Origin: Ignavibacteriales bacterium | GTDB lineage: Bacteria; Bacteroidota; Ignavibacteria; Ignavibacteriales; Melioribacteraceae | Assembly (NCBI GenBank): GCA_026390775.1 | Contig: JAPLFF010000007.1 | Location: 1,612,001 to 1,676,000 of the forward strand | DNA length: 64,000 nt | Reading direction: 5' to 3' | Shown: in pieces, positions 9,497-57,145 of the stretch | How positions within the stretch are numbered: position 1 is the first letter of the stretch | Layout: each line of letters opens with the position of its first letter | Translations under genes and position numbers: made by a program | The notes under the pieces: model-generated | Seen by the model: the letters and a program-made list of their open reading frames with translations, nothing else | Database searches by the model: none | Told to the model about the DNA's origin: nothing

Positions 9497-10189
9497 TTGA
9501 AAAAAATCCAGATACTACTTATTGAAGATAATAAGCTTCTGCGTGATGGCATTGCATCAATGCTCAAAAAGCAGCCTGATATGCATGTTGTTGCTACTAT
9601 TGGTAATGGCGAAAACATTCTTTTGATGATGGATAAGCACAAGCCAAATATAGTGCTTCTCGATCTCGGTTTACGGAATCAAAACAGTTTGCAAGTTGTA
9701 AAATTAACAAAGCAGCATTTTCCGGGAACCAAAGTAATAGTGATGGATCTTATACCGCTTCAAGCAGATGTTTTCGATTTTGTTCAGGCAGGAGTTTCAG
9801 GATTCATACTCAAAGATGCAAACGTTGCTGATTTTTTTAAAACTATCCGATCAGTTTATCAGGGCGCTAAAGTTTTACCATCGCATTTAACCGGCTCACT
9901 TTTTTCTCAAATCGTTGAACATGCTGTTAACGGATCCAACCATTCGGCAATCATTGAATCGGTTCGTATGACAAAACGTGAGCGGCAAGTAATTGAATTG
10001 ATTTCTGATGGACTCACAAATAAAGAGATCGCACAAAAACTTCATCTATCAACCTACACAATAAAAAGCCACGTCCATAACATACTTGAAAAATTAGCGC
10101 TTAATACACGTGTGCAGATTGCAAAACACGCTCATCTTTCTGACTCCTACAAAACTGCAATAGAGACTACTTCATTAATTGGTGAGTAA
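9497..10189 (+). CDS. NarL/FixJ-family response regulator
   Basis: 230 residues: a receiver domain (about 1-120) with acidic pocket E10-D11, phospho-acceptor D56 (VLLDLGLR) and the conserved Lys in GFILKDA, then a LuxR-type helix-turn-helix (about 160-220) with TNKEIAQKLHLSTYTIKSHV. It starts at TTG 9497, supported by alignment with its paralogue at 45207 (MKKIRLLLIEDNRLLRDGI). There is no cognate kinase next to it; the kinases cluster at 46.7-56 kb. It is a candidate DNA-binding output for the phosphorelay in this window, and possibly a reader of the 41-bp element, but that is inference. Confidence 0.9.
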   Translation: MKKIQILLIEDNKLLRDGIASMLKKQPDMHVVATIGNGENILLMMDKHKPNIVLLDLGLRNQNSLQVVKLTKQHFPGTKVIVMDLIPLQADVFDFVQAGVSGFILKDANVADFFKTIRSVYQGAKVLPSHLTGSLFSQIVEHAVNGSNHSAIIESVRMTKRERQVIELISDGLTNKEIAQKLHLSTYTIKSHVHNILEKLALNTRVQIAKHAHLSDSYKTAIETTSLIGE

Positions 10190-10209: not shown

Positions 10210-10250
10210 AAAAGATGTAGTTCCTTTTTCATCCCTTTGCTCGATAGTAT
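10210..10250 (+). promoter_or_regulatory. 41-bp regulon element, copy 1
   Basis: Contains AAAAGATGTAGTTCC, then TTTTTCATCCCTTTG, then CTCGATAGTAT. It ends 87 bp before the lipoprotein ATG at 10338. The whole leader down to that ATG is nearly repeated at 10780-10907, 13924-14051 and, more loosely, 39414-39532. Confidence 0.75.
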
Positions 10251-10779: not shown

Positions 10780-10820
10780 AAAAGATGTAGTTCCTTTTTC
10801 ATCCCTTTGCTCGATAGTAT
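10780..10820 (+). promoter_or_regulatory. 41-bp regulon element, copy 2
   Basis: Identical to copy 1 through AAAAGATGTAGTTCC, TTTTTCATCCCTTTG and CTCGATAGTAT. It ends 86 bp before the lipoprotein start at 10907. Confidence 0.75.
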
Positions 10821-12381: not shown

Positions 12382-12422
12382 AAAAGATGTAGTTCCTTTT
12401 TCATCCCTTTGGCCGATTGTTT
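12382..12422 (+). promoter_or_regulatory. 41-bp regulon element, copy 3
   Basis: Preceded by ATCTCACCT and containing AAAAGATGTAGTTCC, TTTTTCATCCCTTTG and GCCGATTGTTT. It ends 95 bp before the OmpA start at 12518. Confidence 0.75.
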
Positions 12423-13923: not shown

Positions 13924-13964
13924 GAAAGATGTAGTTCCTTTTTCATCCCTTTGCTCGATTGTAT
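13924..13964 (+). promoter_or_regulatory. 41-bp regulon element, copy 4
   Basis: Preceded by CCTCACCT; contains GAAAGATGTAGTTCC, TTTTTCATCCCTTTG and CTCGATTGTAT. It ends 86 bp before the GTG start at 14051 and shares its full leader with copies 1 and 2. Confidence 0.75.
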
Positions 13965-14050
13965 TCCACTACTCGTAATTATATTTTTTTCTACAAACAT
14001 TAATCAAATATATGAATGACATGTAAAATTAATTTAACAGGAGAATCACT

Positions 14051-18883: not shown

Positions 18884-18924
18884 AAAAGATGTAGTTCCTT
18901 TTTCATCCTTATGGGCGATTGATT
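18884..18924 (+). promoter_or_regulatory. 41-bp regulon element, copy 5
   Basis: Preceded by ATCTCACCC; contains AAAAGATGTAGTTCC and TTTTTCATCC, then TTATGGGCGATTGAT (two changes from consensus). The next real gene is 300 bp away and beyond a terminator, so this copy has no ordinary target gene. Confidence 0.7.
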
Positions 18925-23006: not shown

Positions 23007-23047
23007 AAAGGATGTAGTTCCTTTTTCATCCCTTTGCCCGATTGAAC
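23007..23047 (+). promoter_or_regulatory. 41-bp regulon element, copy 6
   Basis: Preceded by AACTCACCT; contains AAAGGATGTAGTTCC, TTTTTCATCCCTTTG and CCCGATTGAAC. It ends 88 bp before the CsbD-like start at 23136. Confidence 0.75.
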
Positions 23048-28959: not shown

Positions 28960-29000
28960 AAAAGATGTAGTCCTTTTTTCATCCCTTTGCCCGATTGAAC
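28960..29000 (+). promoter_or_regulatory. 41-bp regulon element, copy 7
   Basis: Preceded by AGCTCGCCC; contains AAAAGATGTAGTCCT, TTTTTCATCCCTTTG and CCCGATTGAAC. It lies 131 bp before the small gene at 29132, which is followed by bacterioferritin. The 28797-28959 stretch between the divergent ClC gene and this element holds nothing else I recognise. Confidence 0.72.
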
Positions 29001-33781: not shown

Positions 33782-33822
33782 TAAAGATCTAATCCCTTTT
33801 TCATCCCTTTGGACTATTGTTC
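33782..33822 (+). promoter_or_regulatory. 41-bp regulon element, copy 8 (GATCTAA variant)
   Basis: Contains AAAGATCTAATCCC, TTTTTCATCCCTTTG and GACTATTGTT. It shares the GATCTAATCCC change with copies 14 and 15. It lies 187 bp before the KaiC-like gene. The rest of the 33687-34009 gap shows nothing else. Confidence 0.68.
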
Positions 33823-34009
33823 TATTTTACAAAAGTTTCTATAATTCCTTGAGATATTAAGACAAAACACCAAAATCTTTTCTAAGAGGTTGCATTACTT
33901 TATTAACAAACAAGCATTTGGTGTCAAGCTAAATTATTTATGACTGATTTAAATAATCGTAAAAAAATATAATTAAGGAATAGTAATAACATTTCTGGAG
34001 ATAAATTTT

Positions 34010-35731
34010 ATGAAAAAAAACATATTAAAATTTCAGCGAAAGACCCTTCCTAAATCCCCCACCAGTATTCAAGGTTTGGACGAAATCACCGGCGGAGGAT
34101 TACCGAAAGGGAGACCGACGCTTATATGCGGGGGTGCGGGTTGCGGCAAGACTCTTTTTGCAATGGAGTTTCTCGTTCGCGGTGCGACTATTTACAATGA
34201 ACCTGGTGTTTTTATTTCGTTCGAGGAATCTGAAAAAGAACTCATTGCAAACGTTGCTTCTTTGGGGTTCGATTTGAATGGACTTATAGCACGAAAAAAG
34301 ATTTTGCTTGAACATATTCACATTGAGCGAGGTGAAATTGACCAGAGCGGTGAATATGATTTAAAAGGTTTGTTCGTCCGCATCCATAGTGCAATTGAAA
34401 GCATTGGAGCTAAGCGTGTTGTACTGGATACTATTGAATCACTCTTTACAGCGCTGCCAAATGCTACTGTTGTACGCACAGAACTGCGACGGTTATTCGG
34501 CTGGTTGAAAATGAAAGGTGTTACAACAATAGTAATTGGAGAACGAGGCAATGGCACATTAACACGTCAGGGTTTGGAAGAGTACGTTTCCGATTGTGTC
34601 ATTCTGCTCGATCATCGCGTGAACGATCAATCATCTATACGACGATTGCGTATTGTTAAATATCGCGGCTCAACGCACGGTACAAACGAATATCCTTTTT
34701 TAATTGATGAAGATGGTTTTTCTGTTCTGCCTGTCACTTCGCTGGGATTGAATAACATTACATCCAGCGAAAGAATTTCCACCGGTATTCCACGACTGGA
34801 TACAATGCTCTCCGGTAAAGGTTACTTTCGCGGCAGTACAGTGCTTGTTTCAGGTACAGCCGGTACCGGCAAGACAAGTGTTGCAGCGCAATTTGTTGAA
34901 GCAGCATGTAAGCGTGGGGAACGCGTTCTTTATTTTGCTTTCGAAGAATCCCCGAGTCAGTTTATGCGCAATATGTCTTCAATTGGAATACACTTAGAAC
35001 CGTGGGTGAAAAAAGAATTGCTCACCTTTCATGCAACGCGTCCAACTCTCTATGGATTGGAACATCATCTAACGACTTCTATCAAATTAATTAATAAAGT
35101 TAAACCGCAAATAGTTGTTCTGGATCCTATTGATGCATTCGTGATTGGAGGGAACCAAACTGAAGTAAAAATAATGTTACTGCGTCTTGTGGATTTTTTG
35201 AAGATGAGGAATATCACTGCATTCTTTGCAAGTCTTACCAACACAAATGATGCCCAGGAACTTACAGATATATCAATATCATCACTAATAGACACATGGC
35301 TGCTTCTGCGTGATATTGAAATTGGCGGTGAACGCAACAGAGGACTGTATGTTCTTAAATCTCGAGGTATGGCGCATTCCAATCAGATCCGTGAGTTCAT
35401 ACTTACCGACCACGGAATTGAATTGCTTGATGTCTATGTTGGTCCGGAAGGCGTATTGACGGGCTCGGCTCGATTATCACAAGAAGCGAAAAACGATGCT
35501 GAACAATTATTGCGTCAACAAGAAATTGAACGCAAACAATTTGGTCTAGAGCTTAAACGTGCGGCAACGGATGCTCATATTGTAGTTTTACGATCTGAAT
35601 TTAAAGAAGATGAATCAGAAGCACTAAAGATTATTGAGATGGAAAAATCAAAAAATGAAATGTTCGCACTAGATCAGAAAAAAATGGCAAAGAGTAGAAA
35701 GGCAGATACATTCGTAAAGAAAAAAGCATGA
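34010..35731 (+). CDS. KaiC-like double-domain RecA-type ATPase
   Basis: 573 residues with two RecA/KaiC domains. Domain 1 (about 15-250) has Walker A GGAGCGKT at 41-48 and the catalytic Glu pair in FEES at 72-73. Domain 2 (about 260-490) has Walker A GTAGTGKT at about 282-289 and FEES at about 312. The C-terminus (about 490-573) is a charged helix rather than the cyanobacterial A-loop tail. No kaiA or kaiB is present. Such proteins act as ATPase/autokinase switches in signalling, often with kinases and response regulators, as in this window. GGAG stands upstream of ATG and a regulon element further up. The gene is richer in G+C than its neighbours. Confidence 0.9.
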   Translation: MKKNILKFQRKTLPKSPTSIQGLDEITGGGLPKGRPTLICGGAGCGKTLFAMEFLVRGATIYNEPGVFISFEESEKELIANVASLGFDLNGLIARKKILLEHIHIERGEIDQSGEYDLKGLFVRIHSAIESIGAKRVVLDTIESLFTALPNATVVRTELRRLFGWLKMKGVTTIVIGERGNGTLTRQGLEEYVSDCVILLDHRVNDQSSIRRLRIVKYRGSTHGTNEYPFLIDEDGFSVLPVTSLGLNNITSSERISTGIPRLDTMLSGKGYFRGSTVLVSGTAGTGKTSVAAQFVEAACKRGERVLYFAFEESPSQFMRNMSSIGIHLEPWVKKELLTFHATRPTLYGLEHHLTTSIKLINKVKPQIVVLDPIDAFVIGGNQTEVKIMLLRLVDFLKMRNITAFFASLTNTNDAQELTDISISSLIDTWLLLRDIEIGGERNRGLYVLKSRGMAHSNQIREFILTDHGIELLDVYVGPEGVLTGSARLSQEAKNDAEQLLRQQEIERKQFGLELKRAATDAHIVVLRSEFKEDESEALKIIEMEKSKNEMFALDQKKMAKSRKADTFVKKKA

Positions 35732-35846
35732 CCAGGAAGAAATGGTTATTTGGTTTTTTAAGGAAGCCAAACAGTAGATGTTGAAAATAGATCAGTGAAA
35801 AAGAATAACCAAAATTGTAACGATGAAAGTGCAGTAGGATTTAGGT

Positions 35847-36230
35847 ATGGGATACACAACTGATTACTTACCTGACAAAAAAATTGTCAGCGTTAAAATG
35901 AAAGGAAGATTAAACTTTCAGATTGTAGAACAGTATTCCAAGGAAGCTGTAAAACTTGCTCATCAACATGATTGTACAAAGTTTTTATTAGACCACACAG
36001 AAACAACAATTCAAGGGGGAATTAACAAGCTACACACGGATGGAGAAGAACTGCAGCAATTTGGATTTAAGAATACAGACCGGATTGCAATTGTAATTGC
36101 TAATCTTGGGTTCGACTCCAAATCGCCAGAATCCATAAACCAAAATAACCGTTGGAGTATCTTGAAATATTTTTGTGCGGATAATATTCTAGAAGCATTT
36201 AATTGGCTTTTGGAAATTGAACAAAAGTAA
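35847..36230 (+). CDS. STAS/SpoIIAA-like small protein
   Basis: 127 residues with the alpha/beta pattern of SpoIIAA/STAS-like proteins: IVSVKMKGRLNFQIVEQYSK, KFLLDHTETTIQGG, DRIAIVIANLG and a C-terminal AFNWLLEIEQ helix. The family usually senses or relays signals by protein contact. It follows the KaiC-like gene by 115 bp with the same direction, so a joint role is plausible. A Ser/Thr phosphorylation site like that of anti-anti-sigma factors is not clear, so I do not call it one. Confidence 0.6.
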   Translation: MGYTTDYLPDKKIVSVKMKGRLNFQIVEQYSKEAVKLAHQHDCTKFLLDHTETTIQGGINKLHTDGEELQQFGFKNTDRIAIVIANLGFDSKSPESINQNNRWSILKYFCADNILEAFNWLLEIEQK

Positions 36231-36310: not shown

Positions 36311-36351
36311 AAAAGATGTAGTTCCTTCTTCATCCCTTTGCTCTATTGTAT
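36311..36351 (+). promoter_or_regulatory. 41-bp regulon element, copy 9
   Basis: Contains AAAAGATGTAGTTCC, TTCTTCATCCCTTTG and CTCTATTGTAT. It ends 62 bp before the CsbD-like gene at 36414. Confidence 0.73.
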
Positions 36352-39222: not shown

Positions 39223-39413
39223 TATTTGAATATTTGAATAAAGTTTGTCCGAAGGACTCCTATGGAGAAAAAGTATTTTAACGTTAGTTAGAAAGAATAT
39301 CAGGTTCAATAATAAATTTGTAATTAGAATCTAATAAGATTCTTGGAAATGAATATTCGAAAATCAGAAATGGAAAATTATTGTTTAAAATCTTTACCCA
39401 ACTAAAAGATGTA

Positions 39414-39454
39414 GTTCCTTTTTCATCCCTTTGCCTGATAGTATTCCAATCCCA
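39414..39454 (+). promoter_or_regulatory. 41-bp regulon element, copy 10
   Basis: Contains AAAAGATGTAGTTCC, TTTTTCATCCCTTTG and CCTGATAGTAT. It ends 77 bp before the lipoprotein start at 39532; its leader resembles those of copies 1, 2 and 4. Nothing else is seen in 39223-39413. Confidence 0.73.
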
Positions 39455-41825: not shown

Positions 41826-43535
41826 ATGAACAAAATGAAAAACTATTCTAAGATATGGTTAATTCCACTGCTACTGGTCATGATTATGGCGGGCTGCGAA
41901 GATAGAGTTGGAATCACTTCTACGCTGGTCATCCCTTATACAGTAACGCTATCATCAAGTCCATCGGCAGGCGGATCGACAAGTGGAGGCGGTACATTTA
42001 ATACAGGCTCTTCAGTAACAGTAACCGCAACACCAAATTCTGGATATACATTTACAAATTGGAAAGAGAACGGAGTTGTGGTAACATCAAGTATAAGTTA
42101 TCAGTTTTCTATAAATGGAAATAGAACACTCGTAGCGAACTTTACTGCTGTAGCTCCAACACAGTATACAATAACGCTATTATCAAATCCATTGGCAGGC
42201 GGAACGACAAGTGGAGGCGGTGCATTTAATTCAGCCTCTTCAGTAACACTAACCGCAACACCGAACGCTGGATATACATTTACAAATTGGACAGAGAACG
42301 GAACTGCTGTATCTACAAATGCCAGTTATACATTTACAATAAGTGGAAACAGAACATTAGTAGCGAACTTTACTGCTGGATCTTTAACACAGTATACAAT
42401 AACGCTATCATCAAATCCATCGGCAGGCGGAACGACAAATGGAGGCGGTACATTTAATTCAGGCTCTTCAGTAACAGTAACCGCAACAACGAACGCTGGA
42501 TATATATTTAATAACTGGACAGAGAACGGAATTGTGGTAACGTCAAGTATAAGTTATCAGTTTACTATAGGTGGAAATAGAACGCTTGTAGCGAACTTTA
42601 CTGCTGTAGCTCCAACACAGTATACAATAACGCTATTATCAAATCCATCAGCAGGTGGAACGACAAATGGAGGCGGTGCATTTAATTCAGGCTCTTCGGT
42701 AACGGTAACCGCAACGCCAAATTCTGGATATACATTTACTAACTGGACAGAGAACGGAAATACTGTATCTACAAATGCAAGTTATACATTTACGATAAGT
42801 GGAAACAGAACATTAGTAGCGAACTTTGCTTCAGCAGGTACTGGAGGTCAAGCACCGGTCAATCTTGGAACAGCAGCACGGTTTGGGCTTCTGTCTAACT
42901 CAGCGATCACAAACATTCCGACTTCAGCAATTACCGGAGATATTGGTATAAGTCCTGGTGCAAGGTCGTCGATAACCGGATTTGTATTAACACCAGATGC
43001 CTCGAATACATTTTCGACATCACCTGAAGTGACTGGAAAAGTGTTTGCTGCTAACGATGCAGTTCCAACTCCTGCGATGTTAATTGCAGCTAAGAATGAT
43101 GCGCAAGTCGCATATCTTGATGCCACAGCTGCCGTACGCGGAACCCCAACACCGATCTCAGGAAATATTAATGGACTTACACTCGTTCCCGGTCTTTATG
43201 AATCAGGAACTTCTATTCAAATATCTCCGGGTGGTTTTCTGTACTTAGATGCACAGGGTAATTCCAATGCTGTCTTCGTTATTCGCAGTGCTACTTCGAT
43301 AACAACAGAGGCCACAAGTGAGGTTGTCTTAACAAATGGCGCACAGGCAGCGAACATTTACTGGTCGGCGGGATCTGCTGTCACTCTTGGTACAAACTCC
43401 AAGATGAAAGGAACAATCATCGCCAGTACTTCAATCTCGCTTTTGACAGGTGCAAGATTAGACGGAAGAGCGTTAATACAAGGGCCAGCAGCCGGACAGG
43501 TTTCTTTGGATCATAGTATAATTGTAAAACCATAA
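41826..43535 (+). CDS. Lipoprotein with four InlB-type repeats and a DUF3494 domain
   Basis: 569 residues. A lipobox (LVMIMAGC) is followed by four nearly identical 75-residue InlB-B-like repeats (about 35-335; SNPSAGGTT.GGG.FNSGSSVTV, GYTFTNWTENG, GNRTLVANF), then a DUF3494 ice-binding-like domain (about 340-569; PVNLGTAARFGLLSNSAITN, GDIGISPGARSSITGF). There is no T9SS tail, so it is lipid-anchored, in contrast to the 40668 protein. The repeats are also nearly identical as DNA, which favours recent expansion. GGGAGG precedes ATG. Likely a surface adhesin or ice/surface-binding protein on a stalk. Confidence 0.82.
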   Translation: MNKMKNYSKIWLIPLLLVMIMAGCEDRVGITSTLVIPYTVTLSSSPSAGGSTSGGGTFNTGSSVTVTATPNSGYTFTNWKENGVVVTSSISYQFSINGNRTLVANFTAVAPTQYTITLLSNPLAGGTTSGGGAFNSASSVTLTATPNAGYTFTNWTENGTAVSTNASYTFTISGNRTLVANFTAGSLTQYTITLSSNPSAGGTTNGGGTFNSGSSVTVTATTNAGYIFNNWTENGIVVTSSISYQFTIGGNRTLVANFTAVAPTQYTITLLSNPSAGGTTNGGGAFNSGSSVTVTATPNSGYTFTNWTENGNTVSTNASYTFTISGNRTLVANFASAGTGGQAPVNLGTAARFGLLSNSAITNIPTSAITGDIGISPGARSSITGFVLTPDASNTFSTSPEVTGKVFAANDAVPTPAMLIAAKNDAQVAYLDATAAVRGTPTPISGNINGLTLVPGLYESGTSIQISPGGFLYLDAQGNSNAVFVIRSATSITTEATSEVVLTNGAQAANIYWSAGSAVTLGTNSKMKGTIIASTSISLLTGARLDGRALIQGPAAGQVSLDHSIIVKP

Positions 43536-44941: not shown

Positions 44942-44982
44942 AAAAGATGTAGTTCCTTTTCCATCCCTTTGACCGATTGAAT
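44942..44982 (+). promoter_or_regulatory. 41-bp regulon element, copy 12
   Basis: Preceded by CCTCACCC; contains AAAAGATGTAGTTCC, TTTTCCATCCCTTTG and ACCGATTGAAT. It points at the LuxR-type regulator at 45207, but a strong terminator lies between (45083-45139). Confidence 0.73.
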
Positions 44983-45206: not shown

Positions 45207-45896
45207 ATGAAAAAAATCAGATTGTTACTTATTGAAGATAACCGTCTTCTTCGAGATGGAATCCTAAAGATTCTTAAACCTTATAAGGATATAGTTATAA
45301 TCGCTGCATCCGGAGACGGTAGGAACACACTTCTCAAAATCCAGCAGTTAAAACCAAATGTGGTTCTTTTGGATTTGGGATTGCGAAGTCAAAATAGTTT
45401 ACATGTTGTGGAAATAGTGAAAAAAGATTTCCCGGAAGCAAAAATCATTGTTATGGACCTTGCACCTGTACAAGCCGATATCTTACAGTATGTAAAAGCA
45501 GGTGCCAACGGCTTCATCCTTAAAGATGCATCGCTTAATGATTTTTTAATCACGATACGAACAATAGCTGATGGGTCAACTGTTCTTCCATCTCTCTTAG
45601 TTAATTCCCTTTTTTCTCAGATTGTTGATAACGCGGTAAGAGATGGTAAATCCCAACTGAAAGAATCAGTACGGATGACAAAGCGGGAACGGGAGGTTAT
45701 CGGGTTACTTAGTGAAGGAATAAGCAACAGAGAGATCGGTCAAAAAATTCACATATCCACCTATACTGTTAAAAGTCATATTCATAATATTATGGAGAAA
45801 CTCGCACTACACACACGGTTGGAAATTGCAAACTATTCTTACACTGATGAAACACTAAAGACAATTACCAAAAGTATTTCGATGGTAAACAATTAG
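45207..45896 (+). CDS. NarL/FixJ-family response regulator, second copy
   Basis: 229 residues, strongly similar to the 9497 protein: receiver with E10-D11, D56 (VLLDLGLR) and GFILKDA, then a LuxR-type helix-turn-helix with SNREIGQKIHISTYTVKSHI. It is the only DNA-binding output protein in the 45-57 kb signalling cluster and so the best candidate target of those kinases. It starts at ATG. Regulon element 12 and a terminator lie upstream, so autoregulation by attenuation is possible. Confidence 0.92.
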   Translation: MKKIRLLLIEDNRLLRDGILKILKPYKDIVIIAASGDGRNTLLKIQQLKPNVVLLDLGLRSQNSLHVVEIVKKDFPEAKIIVMDLAPVQADILQYVKAGANGFILKDASLNDFLITIRTIADGSTVLPSLLVNSLFSQIVDNAVRDGKSQLKESVRMTKREREVIGLLSEGISNREIGQKIHISTYTVKSHIHNIMEKLALHTRLEIANYSYTDETLKTITKSISMVNN

Positions 45897-46634: not shown

Positions 46635-46675
46635 AAAAGATGTAGTTCCTTTTTCATCCCTTTGATGGATTGATT
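46635..46675 (+). promoter_or_regulatory. 41-bp regulon element, copy 13
   Basis: Preceded by TCCTCACC; contains AAAAGATGTAGTTCC, TTTTTCATCCCTTTG and ATGGATTGATT. It ends only 46 bp before the ATG at 46722, the shortest spacing in the window, so transcription must begin close to its 3' end if it is a promoter. Confidence 0.75.
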
Positions 46676-46721: not shown

Positions 46722-49160
46722 ATGGCAAAGATTAATAAAAAAGAAAGAATAAAATCAGCTATAAAGCCGTCCCTCTCGAAAATCAAATTGAAATCCGCTG
46801 ATGAAGTAAGTGAATTCGCCGAGAGTGTGATCAACACTGTGCGTGAACCTTTACTTTTACTGGATAAAGATTTAAGAGTAGTCAAAGCCAGCCGTTCATT
46901 CTATGATTTCTTCAAGGTAAGCTCCGATGAAACAATTGGAACGCTTATATATGATTTGGGAAATCACCAGTGGAATATTCCAAAACTGAGAGAACTTCTG
47001 GAGACAATCCTTCCCGAAAAAACAACATTCGACAACTATGAAGTTGAACACGACTTTTCTACAATCGGTAAACGCATCATGCTTTTGAATGCCCGGCAAA
47101 TTCAAAGAGCCCTTGGAAAAGAGAAGATAATTCTTCTTGCCATTGAGGACATCGCTGAACGTAAGGGGATAGAAACCGGTCTGGAAAAAACCCGCAAAGA
47201 ACTTGTGGTGATTAAAAAATCTGCAGATGAAGTAAGTGAATTCGCCGAAAACATAATCAACACTGTACGTGAACCTTTACTTTTATTGGATAAAGAGCTA
47301 AGAGTAGTTAAAGCCAGCCATTCATTCTATGAATTCTTCAAAGTCAGTTCTGAAGAAACGATAGGAACGCTTATATATGATCTAGGAAATCACCAATGGA
47401 ATATACCTAAACTGAGAGAACTGCTTGAGACAATCCTTCCGGAAAAAACTACATTCGACAACTATGAAGTTGAACATGACTTTTCTACAATCGGTAAACG
47501 CATCATGCTTTTGAATGCCCGAAAAATTCAAAGAGGATCGGAAAAAGAACAGATAATACTTCTTGCCATTGAGGATATCACCGAACGTAAGGAGATAGAA
47601 GCCGGTCTGGAAAAAACCCGCAAAGAACTTGCGGTAATTAAAAAATCGGCAGATGAAGTAAGTGAATTCGCCGAGAACTTAATCAACACTGTGCGTGAAC
47701 CTTTACTTGCACTGGATCAAGAGTTAAGAGTAGTCAAAGCCAGCCGTTCATTCTATGAATTCTTCAAAGTAAGTTCTGAAGAAACAATAGGAACGCTTAT
47801 ATATGAACTGGGAAATAACCAGTGGAATATACCTAAACTGAGAGAACTTCTTGAGACAATCCTTCCCGAAAAAGCAGCATTCGATAACTATGAAGTTGAA
47901 CATGACTTTTCTACAATCGGTAAACGCATCATGCTTTTGAATGCCCGGCAAATTCAAAGAGGATCGGGAAAAGAACGGATAATACTTCTTGCCATTGAGG
48001 ACATCACCGAACGTAAAAAAAATGAGAACGAACTTTCAAAAGCAAAAGCAGAAGCCGAACGGGCCAATTTTGCAAAGAGTGAATTCCTTTCCCGTATGAG
48101 TCACGAACTTAGAACACCAATGAATTCGATTCTCGGCTTTGCACAATTGATGGATATGGGAGAACTAAATCCGTCTCACAAAAAAGGTGTAGATCAAATC
48201 TTGAAAAGCGGAAAGCATCTTCTAAATTTAATAAATGAAGTGCTCGATATGGCCAAGATTGAAGCTGGACGGCTGACTGTTTCGCCGGAACCGGTTGAAA
48301 TTTTCGGTATTATTTTGGAAACGATTGATATTGTTCGTCATCTCGCTGAAGAAAATCAGATCAAGCTCGAATCAGATGCTTCAACTACTGAAAGACTCTT
48401 TGTAAAAACAGATCACCAGCGTTTGAAACAAGTGGTGAGGGTTGAATGTACAATAAAGAAGTCGGAAGGGAGAAATGAGAATGTAATTCGGATTAGTGTG
48501 ACTGATACGGGAAAAGGTATTGCTCAAGAATACATTGAAAAACTTTTTAAACCGTTCGAACGCATTGGCGCTGAACGAACAGAAACTGAAGGCACCGGAC
48601 TTGGATTAGCCATTTCTGAAAAATTGATTGAAGCAATGGGTGGCAAAATTGGTGTTGAAAGTGAGGTCGGCAAAGGAAGTACTTTCTGGATTGAACTGCC
48701 TCAGACGGAAGGACAACAGAATCACTACGAACGAACAGGTGAATTAACAAAACTGGAAGCTGAAATAACACAGAACAGCGGAACTATTTTGTATATCGAA
48801 GATAATCTTTCGAACATACAATTAGTTGAACAGATTTTAGAAATGCATCGTCCATCAATTAAATTGATAACGAATATATATGGTAAAAATGCAGTTCAAT
48901 TTGCAATTGATTACAAGCCGAATTTAATTCTGCTTGATCTCGATCTGCCCGATATACACGGTAGTGAAGTGATAAAGCTGATACATGCAGAACCGAGAAC
49001 AGCGAAAATACCGGTTATTATTCTTAGCGCGGATGCAATGACAAAACAGATCGAGCAATTAATGGAAGCCGGAGCTGAAGATTATCTGATAAAACCGATT
49101 GATGTAGTACAATTTTTGAAAGTAGTGGATAAGTGGATAAGGAAAAGTAGTAAGGAGTGA
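46722..49160 (+). CDS. Hybrid histidine kinase-like protein with three PAS repeats, lacking an N-box
   Basis: 812 residues. Residues about 24-448 are three almost identical 142-residue units, each a PAS-like domain (NTVREPLLLLDK.LRVVKAS) plus a linker ending ..ITERK. A HisKA domain follows with MSHELRTPMNS (His near 461). The ATPase domain has its G1 (VTDTGKGI), F (FKPFERIGAE) and G2 (TGLGLAIS) boxes, but the N-box is missing: DHQRLKQV joins directly to VRVECTIKK, about 17-20 residues short of the usual ..NLLSNA.KY.. segment. A receiver domain (about 688-805; LLDLDLPDIHG) ends it. Without the N-box Asn it may not bind Mg-ATP well, so it may be a sensor or pseudokinase. Confidence 0.88.
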   Translation: MAKINKKERIKSAIKPSLSKIKLKSADEVSEFAESVINTVREPLLLLDKDLRVVKASRSFYDFFKVSSDETIGTLIYDLGNHQWNIPKLRELLETILPEKTTFDNYEVEHDFSTIGKRIMLLNARQIQRALGKEKIILLAIEDIAERKGIETGLEKTRKELVVIKKSADEVSEFAENIINTVREPLLLLDKELRVVKASHSFYEFFKVSSEETIGTLIYDLGNHQWNIPKLRELLETILPEKTTFDNYEVEHDFSTIGKRIMLLNARKIQRGSEKEQIILLAIEDITERKEIEAGLEKTRKELAVIKKSADEVSEFAENLINTVREPLLALDQELRVVKASRSFYEFFKVSSEETIGTLIYELGNNQWNIPKLRELLETILPEKAAFDNYEVEHDFSTIGKRIMLLNARQIQRGSGKERIILLAIEDITERKKNENELSKAKAEAERANFAKSEFLSRMSHELRTPMNSILGFAQLMDMGELNPSHKKGVDQILKSGKHLLNLINEVLDMAKIEAGRLTVSPEPVEIFGIILETIDIVRHLAEENQIKLESDASTTERLFVKTDHQRLKQVVRVECTIKKSEGRNENVIRISVTDTGKGIAQEYIEKLFKPFERIGAERTETEGTGLGLAISEKLIEAMGGKIGVESEVGKGSTFWIELPQTEGQQNHYERTGELTKLEAEITQNSGTILYIEDNLSNIQLVEQILEMHRPSIKLITNIYGKNAVQFAIDYKPNLILLDLDLPDIHGSEVIKLIHAEPRTAKIPVIILSADAMTKQIEQLMEAGAEDYLIKPIDVVQFLKVVDKWIRKSSKE
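46790..48015 (+). repeat. Three tandem 426-bp PAS-coding repeats
   Basis: Units begin at about 46790, 47216 and 47642 with AAATC.GC.GATGAAGTAAG. They are nearly identical in DNA, including silent positions (for example GTTGAACA.GACTTTTCTACA and ATCATGCTTTTGAATGCCCG), so the duplication is recent or kept uniform by conversion. The exact 142-codon period keeps the frame. Confidence 0.9.
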
Positions 49161-49180
49161 TAATTTCAAGGGAATAAATC

Positions 49181-50191
49181 ATGAATGATTCAATACTAAA
49201 AAATGCAAACATACTAATTGTAGATGATCAACAGGCTAATATAGATGTTCTTACCGGGCTGCTTGATGCTAAAGGTTTTACAAACTATATAACCACTAAA
49301 GACTCCAGACAAGTTTTTAAGTTGTTTGATGAGTTCAAACCGGATTTACTTTTGCTTGATCTGATCATGCCGAACTTAAACGGTTATGAAGTGATGATGC
49401 AATTGAAAGCTCTTATTCCAGCCAATACTTACTTCCCCATATTAGTACTCACCGCCGATATAACACCGGAATCTAAACAAAAAGCACTTGCCAGCGGCGC
49501 AAGTGATTTTCTTGCAAAACCGTTTGATTTGATAGAAGTTGACCTTCGAATAAAAAATCTGCTTAAAGTCCGCTATCTTCACCAACAATTAGAAAATCAG
49601 AATCAGATTGTAGAAGAGAAGGTGAAAGAAAGAACCAAAGAACTTGAAAAGGCAAACATAGAATTGAGAGTTGCTAAAGAAAAAGCCGAACAGTCAGATA
49701 AAGTGAAATTCGAATTACTTAATCAGATGTCGCTGACGGAAAGTCAAAAGAATCACCACGAACGAATAAGTGAATTAACAAAACCGGAAGCCGAAATAAC
49801 ACAGGACAGCAAAACTATTTTGTATATCGAAGATAATCTTTCGAACATACAATTAATTGAACAGATTTTAGAAACGCATCGTCCTACTATTCGTTTAATA
49901 ACTAATATGTATGGCAAAAATGCAGTTCAATTTGCAATTGATTACAAACCGGATTTAATTCTGCTTGATCTCAGTTTGCCGGATATTCACGGTAGTGAAG
50001 TGATAAAGCTGTTACAGGCAGAACCGAGAACAGCGGAAATACCAATTATTATTCTTAGTGCATACGCAATGAGTCGTCAGATTGAAATATTACTTGCAAC
50101 TGGAGCTAAAGATTATCTCATAAAACCGATTGATGTAGTGCAATTTTTGAAAGTAGTGGATGAGAGGATAAGAAAAAGTAGTAAGGTTTAA
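49181..50191 (+). CDS. Double-receiver protein derived from hybrid kinases
   Basis: 336 residues: an N-terminal receiver (about 8-125; ILIVDDQQANIDVLTGLLDA, phospho-Asp in LLLLDLIMP), a coiled-coil signalling helix (about 130-184), then directly a second receiver (about 210-330; LYIEDNLSNIQLIEQILE, LLDLSLPDIHG). The helix ends SDKVKFELLNQMS, where its neighbours continue with HEIR, but here the text jumps to LTESQKNHHER, which matches the linker before the receiver of the 46722 protein. The His box and the ATPase domain are precisely missing. It can only receive or exchange phosphate, a likely phosphate sink or relay. Confidence 0.85.
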   Translation: MNDSILKNANILIVDDQQANIDVLTGLLDAKGFTNYITTKDSRQVFKLFDEFKPDLLLLDLIMPNLNGYEVMMQLKALIPANTYFPILVLTADITPESKQKALASGASDFLAKPFDLIEVDLRIKNLLKVRYLHQQLENQNQIVEEKVKERTKELEKANIELRVAKEKAEQSDKVKFELLNQMSLTESQKNHHERISELTKPEAEITQDSKTILYIEDNLSNIQLIEQILETHRPTIRLITNMYGKNAVQFAIDYKPDLILLDLSLPDIHGSEVIKLLQAEPRTAEIPIIILSAYAMSRQIEILLATGAKDYLIKPIDVVQFLKVVDERIRKSSKV

Positions 50192-50236
50192 GAAGTATGT
50201 TGATGAATGATAGAAGAAAGCTTTGCAACCTTTGCG

Positions 50237-50255
50237 CCTGCCTGCGGTAGGCAGG
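50237..50255 (+). repeat. Short GC-rich palindrome
   Basis: CCTGCCTGCGGTAGGCAGG forms a 7-bp stem (CCTGCCT/AGGCAGG). It is similar to the insertion in the DUF3943 gene (24549) and to 51651-51670. The 182-bp gap around it has no gene. Confidence 0.55.
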
Positions 50256-50374
50256 TTTAATGCTTTTAAAGATTTAGGCTAAGAGACTACCGGCATAGCC
50301 GTCCCCCGGGAGAAGTATCCGCAAAGAAAATAGTTATAAACTTCATAATAAATAAACAATAGAAGGATAAAACC

Positions 50375-51580
50375 TTGATTGATTCATCACTAAAAAACGC
50401 AAACATACTAATTGTAGATGATCAACAGGCTAATATAGATGTTCTTACCGGGCTGCTTGATGCTAAAGGTTTTACAAACTATACAACAACTAAAGACTCT
50501 AGACAAGTTATTGGTTTGTTCGAAGTGTTCAAACCGGATTTACTTTTGCTTGATTTAAGCATGCCACACTTAACCGGTTTTCAAGTGATGATGCAAATGA
50601 AAATTCTTATTCCAGCCAGTACTTACTTCCCCATATTAGTACTCACTGCCGATATAACACCGGAATCTAAACAAAAAGCACTTGCCTGCGGTGCAAGTGA
50701 TTTTCTTGCAAAACCATTTGATTTGATAGAAGTTGACCTTCGAATAAAAAATCTTCTTAAAGCCCGATATTTTCACCAACAATTAGAAAATCAGAATCAG
50801 ATTTTAGAAGAAAAGGCGAAGGAGAGAACCCAAGAACTTGAAAAGAGAAACATAGAATTAACAGCTGCTAAAGAGCAAGCCGAAGAGTCAGATAAACTGA
50901 AATCCGAATTCCTCAATCAGATGTCGCACGAAATAAGATCTCCAATGAATGCCGTCTTGAGTTTTACAAATATATTAAGAGAAGAGATTATAGAAAAACT
51001 AACGCCGGATCTTTTAGACTATTTTGATGAAATTGACTCTACCGGTCATAGACTGATTAGAACTGTTGATTTAATTTTGAATGTTTCTGAAATGCAAGTC
51101 AGCACATATGAACTATCTTTTAGAGAATTCGATTTACTAAAAGAAATTATCGGAAAAATTATAAATGATAACATGAAGTTAATAGAAAGTAAGGGACTAA
51201 AATTTAATTTTTTCTCAGATCTATCAAAAGCAATAATAGTAGGTGATCAATACAGCATCTATCAAATATTTGTGAATTTAATAGACAATTCTATCAAGTA
51301 CACAAAGAAAGGATACATTTCTATTAACGTTTCAAAAGATGAACAAGGAATAAATGTTAGCATCGATGATACCGGCATAGGTATATCAGAAGAATTTTTG
51401 AAAATAATGTACCACCCGTTTATGCAAGAGGATAGAGGAAACTCTAGAAGATATGATGAGAACGGCTTAGGTTTTTCACTCGTAAAAAAATATTGCGATT
51501 TGAACAGAATAGCTCTCACAGTAGAATCAAAGAAAGATGTAGGAACTAAGTTTACTTTGTTTTTTACCTGTCCAAAATAG
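50375..51580 (+). CDS. Receiver-histidine kinase
   Basis: 401 residues: N-terminal receiver (about 8-125; LLLLDLSMPHLTG), coiled coil, HisKA with NQMSHEIRSPMN (His about 188) and an ATPase domain with N-box FVNLIDNSIKYT, G1 IDDTGIGIS, F-box YHPFMQED and G2 NGLGFSLVKK. It starts at TTG 50375, judged by alignment with the ATG of the 49181 gene; AGAAGGA is upstream. The receiver and coiled coil are almost identical in DNA to those of 49181 and 51807, so these genes arose by local duplication. No sensor domain: input must come by phosphorylation of its receiver. Confidence 0.88.
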   Translation: MIDSSLKNANILIVDDQQANIDVLTGLLDAKGFTNYTTTKDSRQVIGLFEVFKPDLLLLDLSMPHLTGFQVMMQMKILIPASTYFPILVLTADITPESKQKALACGASDFLAKPFDLIEVDLRIKNLLKARYFHQQLENQNQILEEKAKERTQELEKRNIELTAAKEQAEESDKLKSEFLNQMSHEIRSPMNAVLSFTNILREEIIEKLTPDLLDYFDEIDSTGHRLIRTVDLILNVSEMQVSTYELSFREFDLLKEIIGKIINDNMKLIESKGLKFNFFSDLSKAIIVGDQYSIYQIFVNLIDNSIKYTKKGYISINVSKDEQGINVSIDDTGIGISEEFLKIMYHPFMQEDRGNSRRYDENGLGFSLVKKYCDLNRIALTVESKKDVGTKFTLFFTCPK

Positions 51581-51650
51581 TTAAATAAATGGACCACCTA
51601 TTTTAGAGAAATACGAAAATGAAAAGTTCTGGAAGAAATTGGAACATAGA

Positions 51651-51670
51651 CTTGTCTACGGGCAGGCAGG
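51651..51670 (+). repeat. Short GC-rich repeat
   Basis: CTTGTCTACGGGCAGGCAGG resembles the repeats at 24549 and 50237, sharing the GGCAGG arm. The remaining 51581-51806 gap holds nothing clear. Confidence 0.4.
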
Positions 51671-51806
51671 TATGCATCGGTATGAAAATATATGTCCCTT
51701 AATTATCCTTTGCAGAATAAGTCATAGGTAGATACAATTTCACTTGAAGAAAGGATTTGAACAATATATCTACAATGTTAAATGATAATTTAAGTGGAAA
51801 TAAGCC

Positions 51807-53456
51807 ATGATAGCTTCTACACTGATAAACGCAAAAATTCTCATTGTAGATGATCAACAAGCTAACATTGATGTTCTTACCGGGTTGCTGGATGCAAAGG
51901 GTTATACAGACTATACCACAACAACAGATTCACGAAAAGTGATCAACTTGTTCGAAGAATATAAACCGAATTTACTTTTGCTTGATCTGAACATGCCGCA
52001 CTTAACCGGTTTTCAAGTGATGATGCAATTGAAGGTTTTTATTCCAGCCAATACTTACTTCCCCATATTAGTACTCACTGCCGATATAACACCAGAATCT
52101 AAACAAAAAGCACTTGCCGCTGGCGCAAGCGATTTTCTTACAAAACCATTTGATTTGATAGAAGTTGACCTTCGAATAAAAAATCTTCTTAAAGTCCGCT
52201 ATCTTCACCAACAACTAGAAAACCAAAATCAGGTTTTAGAAGAAAAGGTGAAGGAAAGAACCAAAGAACTTGAAAAGGCAAACATAGAATTGATAGTTGC
52301 AAAAGAACAAGCTGAGGGAATGAACCGCTTAAAAAATTGTTTCCTTTCTAATATGAGTCATGAATTGCGAACGCCCTTAATTTCTGTACTAGGTTTTGCA
52401 GAATTGCTTCAGCAAGAATTAAAAGATCCCGAACAATTGGAATTTGTTAAAAACATAATGGAAGGAGGACAAAGATTAAACAACACTTTAAGTAAAATTT
52501 TAGAAATCTCAAAACTTGAAGCAGCAAATTCGTTTTTAAAATTGCAGCCGTACAATCTTGCTGACGAGATAAAAGTATTAGTAAAATCGTTCTTACCTAT
52601 GGCTCAATCAAAGCGGTTATTCCTCAAAACAGAACTTAATGATACTTCTCTAAATGTTTATATAGACAGTGAACTATTTGGTAAAGCGCTCTATCATTTG
52701 GTCAGCAATGGAATCAAGTTTACAAAAGAAGGGGGCGTTTTAGTTACATTGAATCATGAAAGAAAACAAGACCACGATTGGGCTGTTACCAAAGTAATTG
52801 ATACGGGCATTGGAATATCAAAGGAGAATCTAAATAAAATCTTTGATGCTTTTAGACAAGCAAGCGAAGGTAATAGTAGAAACTATGAAGGGACAGGACT
52901 TGGAATAACAATTGCCAAAAGAATTGTTGAGTTAATGCAGGGTTATTTACAAATCGAAAGTGATATTGGTAAAGGATCTACCTTTTCAATTTGGCTGCCA
53001 GCAATACCAAATAAAAATCAGATACATCATCAGATCGAAGAAAAATTGGCAAGTACAATAGTTAAACCACCTACTATAAAAGAAAAAGGGTTACCAAAAA
53101 TATTAATTGTTGACGATAACTCCTCCAATCGTTTGTTTATGAATCATTGTTTATCAAGTTATGTGAGAATAATTGAAGCTGAAGATGGCATAACGGGTGT
53201 TACATTTGCATCAAAGGAACACTTCGATCTAATTCTTATGGACATAAACCTCGGTGCAGGCATTGACGGTGTTGAAGCAATGCATCAGATAAGAAAAATT
53301 CCGGGATATACACGTGTACCAATTATTACTGTTACTGCTTACGTTATGTTCGGGGATAAGGAACGGTTTTTAAGCGAAGGTTTTGATGATTATTTAGCAA
53401 AACCATTTTCGAAAAATATTTTAGTTAGTTTAGTAGAAAAATGCCTTGCAAAATGA
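51807..53456 (+). CDS. Receiver-kinase-receiver hybrid histidine kinase
   Basis: 549 residues: receiver 1 (about 8-125; LLLLDLNMPHLTG), coiled coil, HisKA with SNMSHELRTPLIS (His about 185), ATPase domain with N-box LVSNGIKFT, G1 VIDTGIGIS, F-box FDAFRQAS and G2 GTGLGITIAKR, then receiver 2 (about 430-546; ILIVDDNSSNRLFMN, LILMDINLGAGIDG). All catalytic boxes are intact, so this and 50375 and 53993 are the active kinases of the cluster. Receiver 2 shows an insertion around the phospho-Asp (DINLGAGIDGVE) compared with its neighbours. Confidence 0.9.
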   Translation: MIASTLINAKILIVDDQQANIDVLTGLLDAKGYTDYTTTTDSRKVINLFEEYKPNLLLLDLNMPHLTGFQVMMQLKVFIPANTYFPILVLTADITPESKQKALAAGASDFLTKPFDLIEVDLRIKNLLKVRYLHQQLENQNQVLEEKVKERTKELEKANIELIVAKEQAEGMNRLKNCFLSNMSHELRTPLISVLGFAELLQQELKDPEQLEFVKNIMEGGQRLNNTLSKILEISKLEAANSFLKLQPYNLADEIKVLVKSFLPMAQSKRLFLKTELNDTSLNVYIDSELFGKALYHLVSNGIKFTKEGGVLVTLNHERKQDHDWAVTKVIDTGIGISKENLNKIFDAFRQASEGNSRNYEGTGLGITIAKRIVELMQGYLQIESDIGKGSTFSIWLPAIPNKNQIHHQIEEKLASTIVKPPTIKEKGLPKILIVDDNSSNRLFMNHCLSSYVRIIEAEDGITGVTFASKEHFDLILMDINLGAGIDGVEAMHQIRKIPGYTRVPIITVTAYVMFGDKERFLSEGFDDYLAKPFSKNILVSLVEKCLAK

Positions 53457-53490
53457 AGAAGTGAATCAGGGTTTAATAATACAGCATACT

Positions 53491-53610
53491 TGTCCAAATC
53501 CAAAACTCCGCCAACGTATAAAATAGCGTTGAAATTGTATGACACATTTACAATTTATTACTGAGGGGACCATATATATAGATAGAAAAATATTTTAATT
53601 ACTGGTTAAT
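53491..53610 (+). repeat. Long intergenic repeat, copy R3 (partial)
   Basis: TGTCCAAATCCAAAACTCC, then CGTATAAAAT, a TTATTACTGA block and ATATATAGATAGAAAAAT match the first half of R1 and R2, about 50 kb away. The tRNA-like end is absent. Confidence 0.5.
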
Positions 53611-53684
53611 ATTTAAGACCGTGTTCGCACTTCTTTATTAAGATCTATTTTGCTTGATTTTGAAAATAGACTTAAAAAACTCAC

Positions 53685-53725
53685 TAAAGATCTAATCCCT
53701 TTTTCATCCTTTTGATAGATTGATT
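53685..53725 (+). promoter_or_regulatory. 41-bp regulon element, copy 14 (GATCTAA variant)
   Basis: Contains TAAAGATCTAATCCC, TTTTTCATCCTTTTG and ATAGATTGATT. The preceding 100 bp (TTCGCACTT..., TCTATTTTGCTTGATTTTG, AAAATAGACTT) match those before copy 15, so the whole leader was duplicated. The next intact gene is 267 bp away. Confidence 0.65.
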
Positions 53726-53758
53726 TTATATCCAAAATAGTTGCATCTTTCTGTTATA

Positions 53759-53890
53759 ATGAGTAAAAACTGTTCAACAATAGTATCGGCGGGGATCGTT
53801 TCAATAGTTGTGGCGGATATGATTCTTCATTAGCCATTCGCAGTATTCTTGGCATTGCTTGGATGCTTCACCAAACGCCGGATGCAATAG
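53759..53890 (+). pseudogene. Broken short ORF below regulon element 14
   Basis: ATG 53759 follows a leader (ATAGTTGCATCTTT...GTTATA) like that of the 46722 gene. It encodes MSKNCSTIVSAGIVSIVVAD then MILH, an in-frame TAG, then PFAVFLALLGCFTKRRMQ. It may be a small hydrophobic protein gene with a nonsense change. Another frame here is open but lacks a start. No family is recognised. Confidence 0.3.
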
Positions 53891-53992
53891 TTTTTGAAGC
53901 GGTTATATCGAAAAGCCAATTGACCCGGAGATACTATTATTTCTCAAATGAAATAATTCTTCAAAGGGAAAGAATAATTAAAAGGTTAAGCT

Positions 53993-56008
53993 ATGACAAA
54001 TATTCTAATCGTTGATGATATACGAGAAAATTTATATCTGCTTGAATTACTTCTTAAAGAAAACGGATATATTACTGTCTCCGCTAAAAACGGTGCGGAA
54101 GCATTAGGCCTGGCTCGAAAAGATATTCCGGATCTTATCATTACGGATATTCTTATGCCTGTTATGGATGGTTTCACTCTGTGCCGTGAATTTAAAAAAG
54201 ATGAGAAACTTTGTAACGTCCCTTTCATATTTTATACTGCGACTTACACAGATCCAAAGGATGAAGAATTTGCTCTTAGTCTTGGGGCGGATAGATTTAT
54301 AGTCAAACCTCATGATCTGGGAGAGTTTATTGTAATTGTAAAAGCACTTTTAAAAGAGGCGAAAGGAAAAAATATCCAAACGACAGAAACACCTTCAACT
54401 CCAGAGACTGTAATCTTAAAAGAGTACAATGAAGCTCTTGTGCGAAAACTCGAAGATAAAATGTTGCAGGTAGGGCAATCAGAAAAAGATATTAGAAAAT
54501 ATAATATCCTACTTCTTAAAGAAATAGAGGAACACAAACGTGCAGAAGAAGCGCTGCTCGAAAGCGAAGAGCGTTACCGCAAGTTAGTAAATTTATCTCC
54601 AGATGCTATTGTTGTACATTCCGGTGGCAGATTCATTTTTGTTAATCCTGCGGCTGTAAAACTCTTCGGAGGGAAAAATCCTCAGGATATACTTGGTAAG
54701 CCCATTATCGAATTTGTACATCCGGATTTTCGAAACATAGTTCAAAATCGGGTGCAACAAATAAGCAAGGGGCAAACAGTGCACCTGATTGAAGAAAAAT
54801 TTATTCAATTGGATGGAACAGTAATAGATGTAGAAGTGGCTGCAATGCCTTTTAGTTATGAAAGCAAACCATCTGTGCAAGTAGTCGTTCGCGACATTAC
54901 AGAGCGCAAACGTGCCGAAGAAGAAATTATAATGCTTGCTCACTCTTTAAGAAGTATAAATGAGTGTGTTAGTATCACCGATATGGAAGATAAAATTATT
55001 TTTGTCAACGAATCATTTTTGAAGACTTATGGTTACGATGAAAATGAACTGGTAGGAAAACATATGAGCATAGTACGTTCACCCAACAATCCACCGGAAT
55101 TAGTTAAGGAAATTTTACCAGCCACAATACGCGGAGGATGGCAAGGTGAATTGTGGAATAAAAGAAAAGATGGAAGTGAATTCCCGATATATCTTTCCAC
55201 AACAATTATAAATGATAAGGAAAGCAAACCTTTAGGACTAATTGGAGTTGCAACCGATATAACCGGGCGTAGACGTGCCGAGAAAGAACTGATAGAAGCA
55301 AAAGAGAGAGCAGAAGAATCCGATAAACTGAAATCTGAATTCCTCAATCAGATGTCTCACGAAATTAGAACTCCTATAAATGCAATAGTTGGAAATGTTG
55401 ATTACCTCAATGATTCGGTTGGTAAAGAAATGAATTCCGATGCTCGCGATTGTTTTGATGGTATTGGTCTGGCTTCAAAAAGAATTATTAGAACTGTAGA
55501 TTTGATACTTAATGCAGCAGAATTACAAACCAGCGGATATAATCCTTACAAAGTAAAAGTTGATCTCAATTCCGAGATACTTAATAAATTATATAAAGAG
55601 CATCAGCTTTCAGCTAAGCAGAAAGGATTAGAACTGATCTACACAAGTGAATCAAAGGACTCGCAAGTTTTAGCCGATGTATACAGTATTACTCAAATCT
55701 TTGCCAACTTGATAGACAATGCAATCAAGTACACAAAAAAGGGTAAAGTAGAAATACTTTTATTAAAGAATAAAACCGGTAATATTATGGTTGAGATAAA
55801 AGATACCGGAATAGGAATGAGTAAAGATTTTCTTTCAAGAATGTTTGATCCGTTTGTTCAAGAAGAGCAAGGATATACGAGAAGTTACGATGGCAGCGGA
55901 TTGGGATTAACGCTTGTAAAGAACTATTGCGATATAAACAATGCCGTATTAGAAGTAGAGAGCGAAAAAAATGTAGGTTCAACTTTTAGAGTAATATTTA
56001 AGAGTTAG
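53993..56008 (+). CDS. Receiver-PAS-PAS histidine kinase
   Basis: 671 residues: receiver (about 1-120; ILIVDDIRENLYLLELLL, phospho-Asp in LIITDILMPVMDG), coiled coil, PAS 1 (about 190-300; YRKLVNLSPDAIVVHSGGRF), PAS 2 (about 310-430; SITDMEDKIIFVNESFLKTY), HisKA with NQMSHEIRTPINA (His about 456) and an ATPase domain with N-box FANLIDNAIKYT, G1 IKDTGIGMS, F-box FDPFVQEE and G2 GSGLGLTLVKN. All catalytic boxes are present. No membrane segment, so it is a soluble sensor. The stand-alone receiver at 56065 follows closely and is its likely partner. Confidence 0.9.
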   Translation: MTNILIVDDIRENLYLLELLLKENGYITVSAKNGAEALGLARKDIPDLIITDILMPVMDGFTLCREFKKDEKLCNVPFIFYTATYTDPKDEEFALSLGADRFIVKPHDLGEFIVIVKALLKEAKGKNIQTTETPSTPETVILKEYNEALVRKLEDKMLQVGQSEKDIRKYNILLLKEIEEHKRAEEALLESEERYRKLVNLSPDAIVVHSGGRFIFVNPAAVKLFGGKNPQDILGKPIIEFVHPDFRNIVQNRVQQISKGQTVHLIEEKFIQLDGTVIDVEVAAMPFSYESKPSVQVVVRDITERKRAEEEIIMLAHSLRSINECVSITDMEDKIIFVNESFLKTYGYDENELVGKHMSIVRSPNNPPELVKEILPATIRGGWQGELWNKRKDGSEFPIYLSTTIINDKESKPLGLIGVATDITGRRRAEKELIEAKERAEESDKLKSEFLNQMSHEIRTPINAIVGNVDYLNDSVGKEMNSDARDCFDGIGLASKRIIRTVDLILNAAELQTSGYNPYKVKVDLNSEILNKLYKEHQLSAKQKGLELIYTSESKDSQVLADVYSITQIFANLIDNAIKYTKKGKVEILLLKNKTGNIMVEIKDTGIGMSKDFLSRMFDPFVQEEQGYTRSYDGSGLGLTLVKNYCDINNAVLEVESEKNVGSTFRVIFKS

Positions 56009-56064
56009 ATCAAGAGCAATGACAATTTAGAAATTTTTGAAGCCCAACTATTGTGGAAATTAAA

Positions 56065-56639: not shown

Positions 56640-56680
56640 TAAAGATCTAATCCCTTTTTCATCCCTTTGGATTATTTACT
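56640..56680 (+). promoter_or_regulatory. 41-bp regulon element, copy 15 (GATCTAA variant)
   Basis: Contains TAAAGATCTAATCCC, TTTTTCATCCCTTTG and GATTATTTACT. It ends 77 bp before the small gene at 56758. Confidence 0.68.
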
Positions 56681-57104: not shown

Positions 57105-57145
57105 AAAAGATGTAGTTCCTTTTTCATCCTTTTGACCGATTGAAT
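57105..57145 (+). promoter_or_regulatory. 41-bp regulon element, copy 16
   Basis: Preceded by AGCTCATCC; contains AAAAGATGTAGTTCC, TTTTTCATCCTTTTG and ACCGATTGAAT. It ends 63 bp before the gene at 57209. Confidence 0.74.

Follow-up and report, generated by a model that had tools for sequence, protein, structure and literature searches.

What can a KaiC protein do in a genome that encodes neither of its timing partners? The question was raised by a kaiC gene in a stretch of 64,000 nucleotides (the window) from an Ignavibacteriales bacterium (GCA_026390775.1, contig JAPLFF010000007.1, positions 1,612,001 to 1,676,000 of the forward strand). A conserved, KaiB-free KaiC within a response-regulator gene set is real. 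Its function is read here, with moderate confidence and from sequence comparison, as that of a KaiC2-type ATP/ADP phosphoswitch that would work without KaiB in a response-regulator regulon and whose docking surface has probably changed. Coordinates of all features are given in Table 1.

Table 1. Positions of kaiC, its neighbours, the box copies and the candidate regulators in the window.
Feature	Position	Strand	Remark
LuxR/NarL-type response regulator	9497..10189	+	Pfam Response_reg and GerE; candidate box-binder
Box copy	10214..10239	+	
Box copy	10784..10809	+	
Box copy	12386..12411	+	upstream of OmpA-type gene 12518
Box copy	13928..13953	+	
Box copy	18888..18913	+	
Box copy	23011..23036	+	
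Box copy	28964..28989	+	upstream of ferritin-like gene 29393
kaiC box, GATCTAA type (GATCTAATCCC...)	33786..33811	+	two ATCCCTTT half-sites 11 bp apart
Predicted kaiC promoter	33817..33845	+	fixed spacing from box to TAnnnT; inferred start site
kaiC	34010..35731	+	573 aa; KaiC2 / R. sphaeroides type; from ORF list, profile and structure-database matches
Lys119 codon	34364..34366	+	two residues beyond KaiB-binding B-loop; Glu in KaiB-linked KaiC
Ser424-Ser425 codons	35279..35284	+	aligned with KaiC_RS phosphosites Ser413-Ser414 (part of PMC10076222)
SpoIIAA/STAS-like gene	35847..36230	+	127 aa; weak assignment by profile match; not conserved beside kaiC
Box copy	36315..36340	+	upstream of small ORF 36414
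Box copy	39408..39433	+	
Box copy	44946..44971	+	upstream of response regulator 45207
Second LuxR/NarL-type response regulator	45207..45896	+	paralogue of 9497; recognition helix near-identical
Box copy	46639..46664	+	upstream of hybrid kinase 46722
Box copy, GATCTAA type	53689..53714	+	upstream of kinase 53993
Box copy, GATCTAA type	56644..56669	+	
Box copy	57109..57134	+	upstream of radical-SAM gene 57400

A double-domain KaiC without KaiA or KaiB

The kaiC product matched PF06745 in two stretches (E 1.7e-105), passed the NF006799 profile (731 bits; cut-off 408), and carried tandem ATPase domains with Walker A motifs (residues 42-48 and 282-289) and catalytic glutamate pairs (FEES at residues 71 and 311), bearing out the two intact ATPase domains reported in an earlier note on this DNA. 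The circadian KaiC equivalog TIGR02655 was not reached (362.8 bits; curated cut-off 546). The closest solved structures were R. sphaeroides KaiC entries (8DBA, 8FWI and 8DB3); 8DBA was aligned over residues 13-568 (661 bits), a span that includes a C-terminal extension of ~50 residues. In the alignment with R. sphaeroides KaiC (KaiC_RS), the Ser-Ser phosphosites of CII were kept as Ser424-Ser425. One other, weaker KaiC-like match was present in the same genome (C3:771169).

The genome (3.01 Mb, 8 contigs, 99.94% complete) was searched with profiles for KaiB (PF07689, E<=0.001) and KaiA (PF07688). Neither was matched, and both were found in Synechococcus elongatus, used as positive control. The description of this KaiC as standing without KaiA or KaiB, first made for the window, thus holds for the genome; no kaiB was found elsewhere, hence no complete kaiABC, and the genome encodes neither a KaiBC hourglass (kaiB in the genome) nor a KaiABC clock (kaiA and kaiB). 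KaiB was found in 4 of 57 genomes (this one and relatives). Across 341 genomes of the class Ignavibacteria, KaiC was found in 53 and KaiB in 40, and comparison of the two lists placed 24 of the 53 kaiC-bearing genomes without KaiB. Among the four KaiB-bearing genomes of the 57, G033 carried a pair of kaiB genes immediately after another KaiC (69% identical); its 90% orthologue of the window KaiC had no kaiB next to it. KaiB absence was judged genome-wide for genomes (G numbers) and locally for one set of loci (L numbers), over as much as 5 kb after kaiC, contig permitting; L094, whose contig stops 112 bp past kaiC, was scored KaiB-free by genome search.

The box, the predicted promoter and the candidate binder

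Searching the genome for the box with <=3 mismatches gave 18 matches, 15 of them in the window within a 47-kb cluster, and the reversed pattern, used as control, gave 0, so that the box exceeds chance. A genome-wide regulon or a dispersed repeat in this genome was rejected, since 15 of the 18 matches fell in that single stretch. The earlier note had set kaiC under a GATCTAA-type element shared with units at 53.7 and 56.6 kb; copies of that type were located at 33786, 53689 and 56644. In this type the first half-site is identical to the second over ATCCCTTT, and we would guess that it may be the stronger site. Behind box copies, 43-aa lipoprotein-like ORFs with near-identical leaders were observed (10338-10469 and 10907-11038, with repeats near 14006 and 39487).

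Box copies from the window and from fetched loci (74 distinct) were aligned. The conserved block was a tandem repeat, in which columns 7-14 gave the best self-match at an 11-bp shift (5.74/8), followed by a shift of 10 (5.46/8) and by the three remaining shifts tried (3.93 or less). Downstream of the block, columns 31-33 read TTG (T 0.96, T 0.81, G 0.78) and columns 54-59 TAnnnT (T 0.77, A 0.81, T 0.92), a spacing of 17 bp. At kaiC these elements read TTGTTC (-35, 33817-33822), a 17-bp spacer and TATAAT (-10, 33840-33845); at window copies 44946, 46639, 53689 and 57109 the -10 lay off the exact column. A Bacteroidota-type -7 element, TAnnTTTG, gave no more than scattered matches. This geometry suggests that the box is an activator site beside a sigma70-like promoter, and a tandem 11-bp box adjoining the -35 would suit an activator dimer.

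The 9497 regulator or its paralogue 45207, both with the receiver and GerE helix-turn-helix of NarL/FixJ-type regulators, is the best candidate for binding the box. An unlikely alternative is that the box is bound by a different regulator, such as an unrelated activator or a sigma factor, and that the response regulator merely travels on the same island, as passengers commonly do. Such an arrangement would accommodate one genome with boxes and no regulator at threshold (G041) and another with a 64% regulator and no boxes (G024). Against it, the box was present in 17 of the 57 genomes and an orthologue of 9497-10189 (63% or more) in 16 of these 17 versus 1 of the 40 others (Fisher p 5e-12, kinship ignored); several genomes (G001, G004, G010 and G046) had a box ~25-30 bp after the regulator stop codon; and the fit of the box to an activator dimer likewise favours the regulator. 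Regulator, box and kaiC followed one another in loci L015, L016, L020 and L098, and a regulator (60% or more) lay within 1.5 kb of kaiC in only 14 of 32 KaiB-free cases.

Asp56 and Lys106 are kept in the receiver of the regulator. At the column that we take to be the Thr/Ser switch position, 32 aligned receivers of the 9497/45207 type had Asp (23) or Gly (9); judged by alignment, these receivers are an atypical subclass.

The earlier note had suggested a possible tie of kaiC to the kinase cluster. Profile scanning of the kinases at 46.7-56.4 kb returned receiver, PAS and kinase domains only, and the cluster, which has no DNA-binding domain, was dropped as a source of the box-binder. Because the box co-occurs with the 9497 regulator and kaiC over the 57 genomes, this regulator and not the kinase cluster was retained as the best candidate. 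The hybrid kinase/receiver cluster (46722-56433) contains internal DNA repeats (426 bp, ~1.2 kb spacing), which suggest that it was recently duplicated. A separate array of four 228-bp direct repeats (41937-42920) encodes InlB-like B-repeats; the same protein carries an ice-binding domain as well.

kaiC, kaiB and the box in relatives

Membership of kaiC in a box-bearing gene set, as proposed before, was borne out by boxes upstream of kaiC in many relatives. The box was present in all 11 kaiC-bearing genomes among the 57 (own included) and in 37 of the 53 among the 341 of the class, and kaiC kept it across genera. At 89 kaiC loci, boxes were scored in the 450 bp upstream of the gene, allowing <=5 mismatches, after five duplicates (L001, L002, L092, L093 and L097) had been dropped. 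Twenty-two loci had a box, 18 without kaiB downstream, 2 with kaiB and 2 unjudgeable; a further 59 had kaiB and no box, 4 had neither and 4 missed one datum. Genomes without KaiB had a median of 5 box copies (n=23) versus 1 in those with KaiB (n=27; p 2.8e-5, kinship ignored). That comparison omitted G232, which has a kaiC fragment, and G033 and G283, in which KaiB is located away from a KaiB-free kaiC.

Strict mutual exclusion of box and KaiB was rejected, because several Ignavibacteria loci carry both. kaiC, kaiB and an upstream box were found together in L129 (from a genome with 10 box copies), L120, L133, L136, L137, L145 and L027, and the box would therefore have joined kaiC before KaiB was lost. 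KaiB-free kaiC genes with no box at <=5 mismatches were L112, L090, L149, L144 and L146. On contigs labelled KSB1 (L021) and Calditrichaeota (L027), a box was also observed upstream of kaiC, which suggests transfer across phyla or misbinning.

Selection on kaiC and the residue beside the B-loop

In seven comparisons of kaiC with orthologues, pN was 0.05-0.10 and pS 0.43-0.68; pN being far below pS, the gene is maintained by selection, and strong purifying selection acts on it. This counts against a decidedly unlikely reading, that KaiC is no more than a passenger retaining some RecA-like ATPase activity and that the change at residue 119 is a single inherited substitution of no function. Retention of the box at kaiC across genera also opposes this reading.

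Residue 119 corresponds to T. elongatus 125 by aligned chain positions. The B-loop is placed at T. elongatus 116-123 in part of PMC12084410, and passages of PMC6378743 describe SasA and KaiB as rivals for the B-loop site in cyanobacteria. Contact of site 119 with KaiB appears likely from its position. Residue 119 was read in 113 deduplicated rows (sequences identical over residues 50-500 entered once; rows shorter than 480 or 500 residues, depending on the set, omitted), of which 65 were placed in a tree and 2 could not be judged for KaiB. Of the KaiB-adjacent rows, 78 were readable and 75 of these had Glu, with one further row gapped; the 32 rows without KaiB had Lys (23), Ala (4), Arg (2), Asn (1) or Glu (2).

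On the 65-row tree, with the root fixed as KaiB-present and Glu, a model in which KaiB and site 119 change dependently was preferred to an independent one (LR 29.4, p 6e-6). KaiB losses on the tree were few (8 changes), and the pair test on well-supported branches, with 1 independent pair, was underpowered, which leaves the passenger reading some room. Among the 31 rows outside the clade of the window, site 119 ranked first of 288 conserved sites, ahead of 118 and then 154, 120, 155 and 161; it was Glu in 23/23 rows with KaiB versus 2/7 without. As exceptions to the association, G285 and G247 lack KaiB and retain Glu119. Ala in 4 of these 7 KaiB-free rows would resemble the relaxation expected of a passenger. 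One separate change was seen in a sister pair (G308, no KaiB, Ala; G327, KaiB, Glu). Within the KaiB-free clade of the window, the residue appeared constrained instead (23 Lys, 2 Arg and 1 Asn, n=26), and Tyr116, Asp117 and Leu118 were invariant, which counts against loss of function. Together these patterns suggest that the KaiB docking spot alters when KaiB is lost in related bacteria. One KaiB-positive row with a gapped B-loop (L085) nests in the KaiB-free clade, a placement that may be artefactual; on this Terriglobia contig, kaiB was observed downstream despite the B-loop gap in KaiC.

A very improbable reading is that KaiC acts as kinase in a partner-switching pair with the SpoIIAA/STAS-like protein. 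The earlier note had placed a STAS-like gene 3' of kaiC and had paired the two products. The position was correct, the genes being adjacent on the same strand, and the family identity was weak: the product matched PF11964 (SpoIIAA-like) at E 0.018 and 16.2 bits, below the cut-off of 25, and 4 of 6 homologues matched at E<=0.1 (best 2.3e-4). The pairing was abandoned. A homologue was present in 6 of the 57 genomes (own included) and adjoined kaiC in this genome only, three of the six carriers (G012, G017 and G025) had no kaiC at threshold, 115 bp separate the two ORFs, and single-sequence structure prediction gave a mean pLDDT of 40.6, too low for use. Barely credible, finally, is that KaiC still runs an hourglass that depends on KaiB, the KaiB being distant or having escaped detection. 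The conserved B-loop tip would suit this reading, but the KaiB search that drew a blank in this genome was positive in 40 of 341, and the charge beside the docking loop is reversed.

Proposed mechanism

In the preferred reading, a KaiC2-type autokinase/ATPase whose lineage has lost KaiB would be transcribed from a sigma70-type promoter with an activator box directly upstream of the -35. The box would mark local envelope and stress-like genes, with the 9497 regulator or its paralogue 45207 as the most likely binder, and KaiC would be produced when that regulator is active, together with OmpA-type, PAP2, ferritin-like, lipid-transport and kinase genes. A stress role of kaiC is suggested by this gene content. 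KaiC would most likely serve as a one-protein energy switch that autophosphorylates Ser424/425 in CII when ATP is plentiful and is dephosphorylated as the ATP-to-ADP ratio drops. The KaiB step, which in KaiB-KaiC timers speeds ATP hydrolysis and dephosphorylation, would be absent here, and KaiC should sense the ratio more slowly and with no timed reset. In CI, the docking patch appears changed from Glu119 to Lys and the B-loop tip retained, so a different partner may now use the site. KaiC could also feed back onto the regulator.

More tentatively, KaiB may have been lost several times within the regulon, mostly with a change of the docking patch, and in the clade of the window a conserved basic residue may have remade the patch into a docking site for a new output partner, which could be the response-regulator pathway that also drives kaiC. 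If so, this KaiC energy switch would have its own, non-RpaA transcription factor. The system offers a candidate regulator and its DNA box that can be tested, and sister KaiC pairs with and without KaiB, in which one residue can be exchanged, offer a way to learn how a clock protein works after loss of its timer partner.

Comparison with known systems

Literature on KaiB-less KaiC, on LuxR-type regulators with KaiC, on KaiC in Pseudomonas stress and on Ignavibacteria KaiC was searched with limited coverage, and no title or abstract beginning matched this system. The KaiC2 systems of Legionella pneumophila and Rhodopseudomonas palustris possess KaiB. The window KaiC resembles these proteins in being of the KaiC2 kind and in its proposed stress role, theirs being tied to stress response and adaptive growth in part of PMC5520375; the same part describes no box-marked regulon for them, whereas the window kaiC would belong to one.

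With KaiC_RS of the KaiBC hourglass (8DBA, 8FWI), the window KaiC shares two domains, the Ser-Ser phosphosites, the C-terminal extension of ~50 residues and full-length alignment. KaiC_RS phosphorylates itself independently of KaiA and remains in that state in ATP, and ADP resets it; KaiB binds on its CI and raises ATPase activity 7.5-fold (sections of PMC10076222). KaiC_RS works with KaiB and has Glu by the B-loop; the genome of the window, in contrast, is without KaiB and its KaiC has Lys.

Myxobacterial KaiC homologues, as far as an extract of PMC11832031 reports, likewise occur mostly in genomes without KaiB. In the same extract, that clade has no B-loop and fifty cases have no phosphosites, whereas the window KaiC retains both.

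None of the kinases among the scanned window proteins carried a KaiB-like domain. RpaA of Synechococcus is an OmpR-type regulator, in contrast to the LuxR/NarL-type regulator of the window. As in the KaiC-SasA-RpaA output of Synechococcus (described in parts of PMC6378743 and PMC5520375), KaiC is here encoded near kinases and a response regulator.
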